Assembly (NCBI GenBank): GCA_009839325.1
Contig: VXPW01000012.1
Span: 1-49,920 of the forward strand
Direction: 5' to 3'
Source: Rhodospirillales bacterium
Lineage (GTDB): Bacteria; Pseudomonadota; Alphaproteobacteria; TMED109
DNA: 49,920 nt
The notes beneath the pieces are model-generated. The model made no database searches. It saw only the letters and a program-made list of their open reading frames with translations, and was not told where the DNA came from. A program made the translations under genes and the position numbers. Below, piece after piece: positions 38,675 to 44,393 of this stretch (positions within the stretch are counted from its first letter, which is position 1; each line of letters opens with the position of its first letter).

Positions 38675-38977
38675 GCCGCCGTAGCTCAGTGGTAGAGCAC
38701 ACCCTTGGTAGGAATTGCCTGCCCGGCGAGAAATCGCCGGGGCTGAACCGCTCAAATTCGGGGAACGCTGCGGGCCGGGAGGCCCATGCCAATCCCGAGC
38801 CAAGCTCGCGTCCGCGCGGGAAGGTGTAGAGACCAGACGGGCGGGACCCTTCGCGGGTCAAGGGATGGTCCGGACCACCAAACGCCAGCTGCGCCCCGAT
38901 GGGCACCGCCGGCGGCCGCGAAAGCGGTAGTGGTGCGAAGGGTGGGGTCGAGTGTTCAATTCACTCCGGCGGCACCA
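38675..38977 (+). tRNA. tRNA-Thr (anticodon GGT) interrupted by a group I intron
   Basis: The 5' exon (38675-38709) gives acceptor GCCGCCG, D arm GCTC...GAGC and anticodon-stem CACCC followed by TTGGT. The 3' exon (38938-38977) gives AA, GGGTG, variable loop GGGTC, T arm GAGTG-TTCAATT-CACTC, acceptor CGGCGGC, discriminator A and encoded CCA. Joined, they fold as a perfect 75-nt tRNA with loop TTGGTAA and anticodon GGT (Thr). The intron lies between U36 and A37. Unspliced, the tRNA cannot function, so splicing is needed for this ACC/ACU decoder. Confidence 0.95.
38710..38937 (+). ncRNA. Group I (IC3-like) self-splicing intron, 228 nt, no ORF
   Basis: The upstream exon ends in U, and the intron ends in G, as group I splicing requires. 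GCC at 38717-38719 can pair with exon GGU in P1, with the required U-G pair at the splice site. P2 is a perfect 8-bp stem CCCGGCGA/TCGCCGGG closed by a GAAA tetraloop. The core words CTCAAATTCGGGGAAC (38751-38766), CCGAGCCAAGCT (38795-38806) and GGTGTAGAGACCAGACGG (38823-38840) match the P3-P8 core remembered from the Azoarcus tRNA-Ile intron. A GAAA-capped stem (CCGC/GCGG) lies near the 3' end. No homing endonuclease is encoded. Confidence 0.93.
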
Positions 38978-39118: not shown

Positions 39119-39514
39119 ATGCAACTCTCGTCCGGGCAATGCGAACGGCTCGAGCGCAGGGCGCAGCAGGATCGGCTGGAACGGGAGCGCGCGGGCCACC
39201 AGCCGGGACATCCCGAGATCGACCGGAGAGCGCTGGCGCTCACCCGTCTCGCCGTCGCCCGGATTGACGGCAATCCACGCCTCGTGCAGGTGGGACTCGA
39301 CAACATCGAGCGGTGGACGCGGCAGAACGGCGGCTACCTGTCGCCAGCCCACGCCGAATGGAAAGCGTTGATCGAACAGCACCCGTGGCAACAGCTGCGC
39401 AGGATCCTCCTCGAGGACTCCGACGAGGGGCAGCGACTACGAAGCTCACACCCCTTCAAAGGCATCATCACGCCCGAGGAGCGGACACGCGTCTATGCAG
39501 CGCGAGGACCTTGA
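39119..39514 (+). CDS. Hypothetical protein paired with the DUF6036 nucleotidyltransferase (probable antitoxin)
   Basis: A 131-residue, mainly helical protein. It has a helix-rich basic N-terminus (LERRAQQDRLERERAGHQPGHPEIDRRALALTRLAVARIDGNP) and a C-terminal segment LSPAHAEWKALIEQHPWQQLRRILLEDSDEGQRLRSSHPFKGIITPEER. That ending is seen in small proteins regularly encoded just before DUF6036 nucleotidyltransferases. The ATG at 39119 follows AAGGA by 7 bases. It overlaps the next gene by 20 bp, so the two are coupled, as in toxin-antitoxin pairs. The antitoxin role is inferred from context only. It is the first gene downstream of the intron-containing tRNA-Thr. Confidence 0.75.
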   Translation: MQLSSGQCERLERRAQQDRLERERAGHQPGHPEIDRRALALTRLAVARIDGNPRLVQVGLDNIERWTRQNGGYLSPAHAEWKALIEQHPWQQLRRILLEDSDEGQRLRSSHPFKGIITPEERTRVYAARGP

Positions 39515-40061
39515 ACACATCATCTGTGCCGCTGCCGCCCTGACCAAGGAAAGCGACTTCATCATCATCGGCAGCCAGGCAATCCTCGGGCAGTATCCAG
39601 ACGCCCCGCAAGCGTTGCGGGTGTCGATGGAAGCCGACATCTACCCGCGCGACAGGCCGGAACTTGCCGACCAGATCGACGGAAGCTTGGGCATGGATTC
39701 ACCCTTTGACGCCACGTTCGGTTACCACGCCGACGGCGTCAGTCCCGGAACCGCCACCCTGCCGAACGGCTGGACCCGACGGCTCACCCCGATCTGCAAC
39801 GCGAACACCAATGGAGCCACTGGCTGGTGCCTGGAGGTCCACGACCTGGCGATCGCGAAATACGCGGCCGGCCGCGAAAAGGACCTCCGCTACACGGCTG
39901 CGCTATTGAACGCCGGATACCTTGATCCGGCCACACTGGACCAGCGACTGCGAGACACGGCTATCGACCATGAGGTCCGGAACCTCATCGCCGCCAGAAT
40001 CCGCCGTGACCAAGCGCGACGCCGCGACAGCGACCGCAGGCCCGGCGACCAGGACGGCTAA
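39495..40061 (+). CDS. DUF6036-type nucleotidyltransferase (probable toxin)
   Basis: A 188-residue protein of the DUF6036 group, distant relatives of AbiEii-type nucleotidyltransferases. It starts EDLEHIICAAAALTKESDFIIIGSQAILGQYP, where IIGSQ is the GS substrate motif, and continues with SMEADIYPRDRPELADQIDGSLG, where EADIYP holds the catalytic acidic residues. The conserved middle block TGWCLEVHDLAIAKYAAGREKDLRYTAALL follows. The C-terminal ~25 residues are highly charged. It is coupled to the preceding gene. The reading frame looks intact. Expected action by family is nucleotidylation of an RNA or protein; the target is unknown. Confidence 0.8.
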   Translation: MQREDLEHIICAAAALTKESDFIIIGSQAILGQYPDAPQALRVSMEADIYPRDRPELADQIDGSLGMDSPFDATFGYHADGVSPGTATLPNGWTRRLTPICNANTNGATGWCLEVHDLAIAKYAAGREKDLRYTAALLNAGYLDPATLDQRLRDTAIDHEVRNLIAARIRRDQARRRDSDRRPGDQDG

Positions 40062-44010: not shown

Positions 44011-44393
44011 TTTCGATGAGATCCCAGCGTGCACAACGAGCGTTACGCCAGGTGGGTGAGAACCTGAAGACCGCACGGCTAAAGCGCAGAATGGCCATCA
44101 AGGATTTTGCGGACCGAGTCGGCGTGTCAGCACGAACAATCATGCGCCTCGAAAAGGGCGATGCCGGCGTCGGCACCGGAACGCTGGCCATGGCGTGTCT
44201 CGTTCTGGGCGGGATTGATCGGCTCAGCGATCTGTTCGATCCTGCTTCGGACGGCACCGGGTTGCTGCTGGAGCGCGCCTCGCTGCCAAAACGAATCGTG
44301 CGAAGACGGAACAAGGCAAGCGGTCGATCCACGTCAGCGGATAAAGAGAACTGGACAGGCGGCCAATCGGATGATGAAGGCATGGGCTTCTAA
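44004..44393 (+). CDS. XRE/HipB-type DNA-binding antitoxin
   Basis: A 129-residue HTH_3 protein: LRQVGENLKTARLKRRMAIKDFADRVGVSARTIMRLEKGDAGVGTGTLAMACLVLGGIDRLSDLFDP is a standard Cro/C1-type five-helix domain of the kind that precedes hipA. The C-terminal ~45 residues are basic and disordered-looking (KRIVRRRNKASGRS), longer than in HipB. Start ATG at 44004; a second ATG at 44016 would free the operator's right arm. It is followed at once by a hipA fragment, so the regulator outlived its toxin. Confidence 0.88.
   Translation: MAFSMRSQRAQRALRQVGENLKTARLKRRMAIKDFADRVGVSARTIMRLEKGDAGVGTGTLAMACLVLGGIDRLSDLFDPASDGTGLLLERASLPKRIVRRRNKASGRSTSADKENWTGGQSDDEGMGF

Follow-up and report, generated by a model that had tools for sequence, protein, structure and literature searches.

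We found that a tRNA-Thr(GGU) gene (38675-38977, forward strand) in the window, i.e., the whole 49,920-nt stretch of DNA that was analyzed, is split after U36 by a 228-nt insert (38710-38937), and that this insert is a group I intron. We consider it very probable (roughly 0.9) that the cell's tRNA-Thr(GGU) is interrupted here by a small, endonuclease-free intron of the IC3 subgroup, which most likely belongs to a Thr(GGU) lineage shared by several groups of Alphaproteobacteria and would remove itself by two transesterifications. What is new is the host tRNA, Thr(GGU); the mechanism and the insertion site are as in known relatives. Thr(GGU) extends the short list of tRNAs usually given as hosts of group I introns in bacteria, namely Leu(UAA), Ile(CAU), Arg(CCU), and fMet. 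Only an interrupted copy of the gene was detected, so that splicing by a ribozyme would be needed to read a core sense codon, and default tRNA and Rfam searches can miss this tRNA.

The two exons (Table 1) join into a 75-nt tRNA that ARAGORN names Thr(ggt), and the unspliced stretch receives the same name and coordinates when introns are allowed. This agrees with the initial annotation, which had read the exons as a tRNA-Thr(GGT) with an encoded CCA and had placed the insertion after U36. In default mode, ARAGORN reports no tRNA at 38675-38977, and the Rfam tRNA model gives no match at its cut-off over the split gene. Besides the encoded CCA, the joined tRNA has seven acceptor pairs, a five-pair anticodon stem, and a five-pair T stem; U36 (U38709) directly precedes the insert, whose last base is a G (G38937). 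Across all seven genomes of the window's genus the 5' exon is 97-100% identical, and the 3' exon, which starts with AAGGGTGGGG and ends with GGCGGCACCA, is identical (100%).

Other splits of the insert also give back a 7-nt anticodon loop when scored. One of them, an Arg(GCG) split, was ranked top by a looser scoring and was rejected, later scoring placing GGT (34.5) above GCG (33.5). We preferred the Thr(GGT) split because of U33, A37, the U before the intron, the terminal G, the aligned guide, and the ARAGORN name, and also because the 40 tRNAs above the Rfam cut-off in the genome include Arg(ACG), Arg(CCG), Arg(CCT), and Arg(TCT) and no Thr(GGT). The scripts that call splits favor a U before the intron, a G at its end, and any guide, so these features are partly built into the calls.

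Table 1. Coordinates of the interrupted tRNA-Thr(GGU) gene and of the predicted elements of its intron, in window positions.
Feature	Position	Strand	Remarks
tRNA-Thr(GGU) 5' exon	38675-38709	+	acceptor strand, D arm, anticodon 5' strand; ends CACCCTTGGT
Anticodon GGU, tRNA positions 34-36	38707-38709	+	end of 5' exon
Group I (IC3-like) intron	38710-38937	+	228 nt; covariation, R1/R2 models, helix list
Internal guide GCC	38717-38719	+	pairs with GGU 38707-38709 (P1); U:G at splice site
P2, 8 bp, GAAA cap 38730-38733	38722-38741	+	pairs intact in 6/6 genus sequences
P3 5' strand, partner 38839-38844	38748-38753	+	5/6 pairs with both-side changes in 37 sequences
P4-P5 domain	38757-38799	+	P4 is 38757-38763 with 38793-38799; covariation
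P6	38805-38820	+	4/4 modeled pairs with both-side changes
P7 5' strand GACCA, partner 38866-38870 TGGTC	38831-38835	+	2/5 pairs covary, 3 invariant
P3 3' strand	38839-38844	+	covariation
P8 hairpin	38845-38859	+	covariation, helix list
P7 3' strand TGGTC	38866-38870	+	covariation
P9.0/P9 region, names tentative	38874-38934	+	hairpin 38915-38928, GAAA cap 38920-38923
Terminal G of intron (omega G)	38937	+	sequence
tRNA-Thr(GGU) 3' exon	38938-38977	+	A37 onward, T arm, acceptor strand, A73, encoded CCA

The insert was confirmed as a group I intron by dedicated covariance models. The first of these (R2), built from 25 introns of which one (L061) is a Thr(GGT) intron and none comes from the window's genus, scored 104 bits (E = 2.6e-26) and gave this single match at E ≤ 10 in the 49,920 bases with default filters; the other (R1), built from 37 related introns including the window's copy, scored 109.1 bits. 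A match to the general Rfam model Intron_gpI (RF00028), which the initial annotation had proposed as a check on its reading, was not obtained at the gathering score (20.7 against 50 bits, E = 0.0042 for 451 bases). Since the two dedicated models score so highly, they outweigh this result and we did not take the RF00028 miss as a refutation; we attribute the sub-threshold score to the limited reach of the general model, whose cut-off serves detection and does not define group I introns. A plastid ycf2 5' UTR match from Rfam on the reverse strand (38912-38975, 24.6 vs. 65.7 bits), which covers the intron's 3' end together with the T arm, is probably due to chance.

A short size, GAAA-capped P2 and P9, and characteristic core words mark subgroup IC3, and all are present here, the core words being AAATTCGG ... 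GTGTAGAGAC. The IC3-like (Azoarcus-type) assignment is based on these features. The Azoarcus-like group I reading proposed at the outset is supported by the held-out model, the covarying P3-P8 elements, the GAAA-capped P2, and the guide-anticodon match. No ORF of at least 100 aa lies inside the intron, the only frames being those that run over its 5' border; it is too short for an endonuclease gene and is not of the homing endonuclease-coding type.

The predicted P3-P8 fold, including the P7 pseudoknot, is supported by covariation in an alignment of 37 sequences, from which a structure of 31 pairs (P3, P4, P5, P6, P8, and the P7 pseudoknot) was modeled. In these pairs 98.8% of the cells are paired, compared with 82.0% in shuffles, and 19 pairs change on both sides, compared with 12.7 in shuffles that keep sequence relatedness in the data and of which none in 500 reached as high; in a control with partners slid by one to three columns, 29-47% were paired. 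P7 is the guanosine-binding helix of group I introns, and one of its pairs is C-G in 4 and U-A in 33 of the 37 sequences, while the next is A-U in 29, U-A in 6, G-C in 1, and unpaired in 1. Within the genus, six full-length sequences could be aligned (95% mean column identity; the seventh copy is split over contigs), and pairing is preserved throughout the six at 8 of 9 variable pairs, where 6.0 would be expected. Of 116 paired columns 10 vary, compared with 20 among 113 unpaired ones (Fisher p 0.05), and there is no compensatory double change among these six sequences; the small excess mildly suggests that pairs are being kept. A side hairpin at 38893-38904 has one pair broken in three of the six. 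Single-sequence folding gave a z-score of -2.35, with a minimum other than the group I structure.

P1 is short, consisting of three pairs followed by a U-U mismatch, and exon U38709 pairs with guide G38717. In the aligned guide columns, GCC is found in all 15 Thr(GGT) rows, GGG in all nine Arg(CCT) rows, GCG in all three Thr(CGT) rows, and GAG in 39 of 40 Leu(TAA) rows, the remaining one having GGG. Guide and anticodon match after U36 in every Thr(GGT) (15/15), Arg(CCT) (9/9), Thr(CGT) (3/3), and CAT (1/1) row, which upholds the earlier statement that the site is shared with Arg(CCU) introns. Overall, 83 of the 86 introns, which cover 11 host/site classes, have an aligned guide that pairs with their own exon, against a mean of 42.1 and a maximum of 53 in 2000 permutations, or 76 when G-U pairs at the two variable places are excluded; the misses are one Lys(CTT) and two Leu(CAA) introns. 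When rows other than Leu(TAA) are taken alone, 43 of 46 pair with their exon (permutation mean 14.7, maximum 25). The match is partly favored by the caller, which gave a bonus for any guide early in the intron; calls were made without the fixed column. Retargeting and reverse splicing become testable with the natural guide-exon pairs GCC:GGU, GGG:CCU, GCG:CGU, and GAG:CUU.

Based on these elements, the transcribed intron would fold into its P3-P8 core with GAAA-capped P2 and P9, and the guide 5'-GCC-3' would pair with the anticodon GGU, the U:G pair of U36 marking the 5' splice site. With a guanosine bound in P7, the RNA would be cut after U36, and the freed 3'-OH of U36 would attack the bond that follows the terminal G and thereby ligate U36 to A37. 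The product would be a mature tRNA-Thr reading ACC and ACU. We infer the splicing chemistry, its protein-free course, and its essentiality by analogy. Alternatively, efficient splicing in the cell may depend on a protein cofactor, which we regard as unlikely: the shortness of P1 would fit such a need, and some group I introns require helpers, e.g., CYT-18 and CYT-19, according to an excerpt of PMC3984707. Against it stand the core, the GAAA-capped P2 and P9, and the size, which are of the Azoarcus type, and the eight neighboring ORFs, four of which match Pfam families that are neither maturases nor endonucleases and four of which match nothing, although a helper encoded elsewhere in the genome is possible. 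Introns of the Azoarcus type self-splice, and self-splicing remains our preferred reading.

Two further observations concern the surroundings of the gene. An ORF near it (39495-40061, forward strand) matches DUF6036, a family of nucleotidyltransferases whose function is unknown. ARAGORN also calls a 92-nt tRNA-Gln(ctg) at 44170-44261 (forward strand), which is probably false because it has no Rfam tRNA match and Gln(CTG) and Gln(TTG) genes are present elsewhere.

The Thr intron was found by BLAST in all seven genomes of the window's genus (G000, G022-G027), the other six copies being 91-98% identical to that of the window, and on this presence it is a settled resident of the genus. The window's genome carries a second intron outside the window, in a tRNA-Leu(UAA) gene (C99:96990-97301; L032, L039) that is the only Leu(UAA) gene detected there. 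This intron is 225 nt long, lies after U34, has the guide GAG, is 79% identical to the Thr intron over 135 nt, and was found by BLAST in six of the seven genus genomes. In G022 (93% complete), and in no other genome of the genus, Leu(TAA) was found neither interrupted nor intact. Neither intron was detected by BLAST (E ≤ 1e-4) in 21 genomes, many of them incomplete, of the family's other genera, and a model search of 21 genomes at least 70% complete gave 7/7 inside and 0/14 outside the genus.

Empty Thr(GGT) sites occur in five sister genomes of one genus (G009, G011, G013, G014, and G015, by pattern and ARAGORN), the intact gene of G011 being cut at a contig end; the other 16 of the 21 sister genomes yielded neither an intact nor an interrupted Thr(GGT). 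A pattern search for intact Leu(TAA) succeeded in 14 of the 21, and ARAGORN confirmed 13 of these. Given this presence pattern, both introns were either gained in the line of the genus or lost elsewhere. Contiguous matches to the spliced Thr gene in sister genera were considered as empty sites and rejected, as ARAGORN names them tRNA-Gly(GCC).

Beyond the genus, we surveyed 386 genomes drawn evenly from the class at E ≤ 1e-6, with stricter filters by which weak matches may be lost, and obtained 58 intron matches in 49 genomes. Fifty loci were placed: 17 Leu(TAA) plus a cut one read by eye, 10 Arg(CCT), 5 Lys(TTT), 4 Lys(CTT), 3 Thr(GGT) plus a cut one (L383), 3 Thr(CGT), 2 Leu(CAA) (one without a guide), and 4 ambiguous. 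The remaining eight matches belong to the window's genus (3 Leu, 4 Thr) or are the second piece of one Lys locus. The Thr(GGT) intron is thereby present in 8 of the 386 genomes (G000, G022, G023, G027, G137, G183, G268, and G104). Host labels of nine loci (L327, L333, L336, L338, L371, L370, L386, L378, and L384) were set by hand where the preferred split tied with the top one or, in L384, scored 2 lower, and seven loci that were ambiguous, cut, or guideless (L334, L337, L380, L383, L388, L389, and L391) were kept out; the ten Arg(CCT) examples comprise four named directly and six by hand.

A pattern scan of named genomes gave at least 118 stretches, of which 80 loci were examined; its pattern, TTGGT, is also found in the D loop of other tRNAs, among them Leu (e.g., GAATTGGTAGAC). 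Among these 80 loci, 78 were named as 10 Thr(GGT), 52 Leu(TAA), and 16 others, of which L076 and L140 look spurious, and L074 is without a host name. The complete Thr(GGT) cases among the 80 are L061, L072, L075, L105, L109, L122, L128, L132, L135, and L137, to which L133, with its Thr(GGT) gene truncated at a contig end, is added. Alphaproteobacteria appears in the title of 5 of these 11 records, and the others name Magnetovibrio, SAR116, Acuticoccus, Rhodobacteraceae, Hyphomicrobiales, and Pseudaestuariivita, which we take to be Alphaproteobacteria as well. Survey and scan overlap (L135/G024, L128/G183, and L133/G104), and the intron of L135 is identical to that of G024 from the window's genus, may come from the same assembly, and was not counted as independent.

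The initial annotation had suggested looking for the insert in other alphaproteobacterial tRNA-Thr genes, and at least 11 complete cases are now known outside the genus: nine scan loci, L341 (G268), and L370 (G137), two of these cases being in named strains, Acuticoccus mangrovi B2012 (L075) and Pseudaestuariivita rosea H15 (L132). Thr(GGT) introns range from 193 to 267 nt. The window's intron most likely belongs to a Thr(GGU) intron lineage that several alphaproteobacterial groups share.

The collected loci also include other hosts, each with a possible guide matching its own insertion site in a free guide search: Thr(CGU) (L382, L386, and L387), Thr(UGU) (L091, L118, and L119), Lys(CUU) (L315, L325, L331, and L392), Lys(UUU) (L376-L378, L381, L385, L067, and L094), and Leu(CAA) (L063, L082, L093, and L375). 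Some of these labels were set by hand. We know of no report of any of these five as a host.

The main tree comprised 86 introns and 207 columns with the guide columns removed, after 42 of the 128 introns collected had been dropped (mostly near-copies and some long branches), and its bootstrap had not settled. It placed 11 of 15 Thr(GGT) rows in one group (87/91), with L075 and L122 branching beside it and L105 and the very long L072 elsewhere; within the group, the window's Thr intron clusters with introns from a Hyphomicrobiales MAG and G268 (100/91). The Leu introns of the genus instead cluster with five introns from other families, one Leu and four Arg (85/77). In an earlier 62-row tree, the window's Thr intron grouped with L128 (90/97), its nearest relative in both trees, close to L132, L109, and L072, and L137, L122, L075, L061, and L105 were scattered with weak support. 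The best tree of a re-test on 53 of the 86 rows (33 more dropped) held 13 Thr(GGT) rows together, i.e., all but L105, with L072 left out; a free search on the 53 rows ended 2.3 units below it.

These trees bear on the rather improbable alternative that the Thr intron is a copy of the Leu(UAA) intron of the same genome, which in the genus ancestor would have moved after U36, through reverse splicing or recombination, with its guide changing from GAG to GCC. The joint occurrence of both introns in six of the seven genus genomes, their absence from what was found in sister genera, some of which have empty sites, and their 79% identity would all fit such a move. Holding the Thr and Leu introns of the genus together costs 18.8 log-likelihood units relative to the best 53-row tree and survives the AU test (p-AU 0.082), as it did in an earlier run (p-AU 0.469), in which the free tree was poor and was beaten by held trees by up to 20 units. 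In that same run, with its poor free tree, placing all after-U36 introns in one clade was 47.7 units worse (p-AU 0.074). Against the copy stand this cost and the two placements in the main tree, in which the window's Thr intron lies among other Thr(GGT) introns and the Leu introns of the genus lie with those of other families. Descent from the genus's own Leu intron is thus disfavored, and the tree leans toward the shared Thr(GGU) lineage as a preference rather than a proof. Reverse splicing may be a route of spread; direct evidence for reverse-splicing mobility is described as wanting in an excerpt of PMC3984707. More tentatively, and with less than even confidence, anticodon loops may be the shared target of one small-ribozyme family that is retargeted via two guide bases and reaches its hosts by reverse splicing and by phage or plasmid carriage.

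The assembly (2.73 Mb in 111 contigs) is 92.4% complete, and an intact Thr(GGU) copy could be missing from it. All 40 tRNAs above the Rfam cut-off in it were named by ARAGORN; neither Thr(GGT) nor Leu(TAA) is among them, and the genome has Thr(UGU) and Thr(CGU) genes. The second tRNA-Thr(GGT) gene that the initial annotation had advised looking for was not found in this assembly by tRNA naming and pattern search, and pattern searches found no intact Thr(GGT) in the seven genus genomes or in the 11 intron-bearing genomes tested. A few pattern matches in intron bearers were rejected because ARAGORN names no tRNA there, and so was a match in G023, the lone one of a stricter pattern in 25 genomes, again with no tRNA by ARAGORN. 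In 29 mechanically chosen ORFs of the window, ACC is the commonest Thr codon (274 of 633), and ACC and ACT together account for 324 of the 633. With no intact copy found and with these counts, it is plausible that splicing may be essential for reading ACC and ACU.

The presence of the Thr(UGU) and Thr(CGU) genes would allow for the gene being a decayed, unspliced pseudogene, with another tRNA, e.g., Thr(UGU), reading ACC and ACU. We consider this very improbable, given that the exons and core are kept in all seven genomes with mostly pair-keeping changes, that ACC is so frequent, and that the insertion recurs in other alphaproteobacteria. An assembly or binning artefact, for which one might point to the 111 contigs and to G027, where the gene is split over two contig ends, is the least probable explanation of all, as the gene is also present in six further genomes of the genus and lies on a single contig in five of these.

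Among known systems, the closest is the IC3 intron in tRNA-Ile(CAU) of Azoarcus, which reportedly has the same size class, core words, GAAA tetraloops, and position after U36, and a three-base guide-anticodon pairing with the guide GUG. The intron described here differs in its host, Thr(GGU), and in its guide, GCC instead of GUG. Crystal structures of the Azoarcus intron are mentioned in an excerpt of PMC3984707. The alphaproteobacterial Arg(CCU) intron likewise lies after U36, with its guide GGG pairing with CCU in all nine rows; it differs in guide and host, and its rows stand apart from the window's Thr intron in the tree. The Leu(UAA) intron of cyanobacteria, plastids, and Proteobacteria has the same fold, and differs in lying after U34 with the guide GAG.

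In the literature, an excerpt of the tRNAscan-SE 2.0 paper describes Ile2 and fMet tRNAs that were overlooked in annotation through group I introns (PMC8450103), the hosts named there being fMet and Ile2 and the host here being Thr. Inserts in the anticodon loops of cyanobacterial tRNA-Arg, -Gly, and -Lys have been described as group I introns (PMC5733544); one length, 49 nt, is given in the excerpt, compared with 193-267 nt in the Thr(GGT) introns, and Thr is not among the hosts that it names. That tRNAs in particular are invaded is stated in an excerpt of PMC8172020 on the basis of a private communication, and excerpts of two other papers concern group I introns in tmRNA (PMC11915505) and archaea (PMC6125680). 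The usual list of bacterial hosts finds partial support in these papers. The initial remark that a Thr host was unfamiliar fits with our finding no report of a bacterial Thr(GGU) intron among the listed matches in open-access full text, a body that leaves most subscription papers outside.

Relatives of the intron also occur on mobile elements. Among 72,556 plasmid records, 1261, mostly enterobacterial, match part of the intron with 60-80% identity, and in the three records opened aac(3)-IId is within about 1 kb of the match. In pCTX-M3, positions 2455-2753 of L300 read as an intron-bearing, alphaproteobacterial-like tRNA-Leu(UAA), a possible hint as to where that DNA came from. The core pattern is present in at least 120 stretches of viral contigs, for which 80 loci (L179-L258) were examined. 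In these 80 loci, 49 of 81 places lie in a recognizable tRNA, the hosts being mostly Leu(TAA) and CAT, with Lys(TTT), Arg(TCT), Asn(GTT), Thr(TGT), Ser(TGA), Ala(TGC), and others. None of these 80 loci (of at least 120 stretches) has a Thr(GGT) host, and one exact Thr(GGT) pattern matched no stretch of the viral contigs. Four phage records (H21-H24) from two phages, Gordonia phage Daredevil and Synechococcus phage S-CBWM1, match the intron; the Daredevil match has 69.5% identity over 53% of the query, and that of S-CBWM1 falls in its annotated psbA group I intron.
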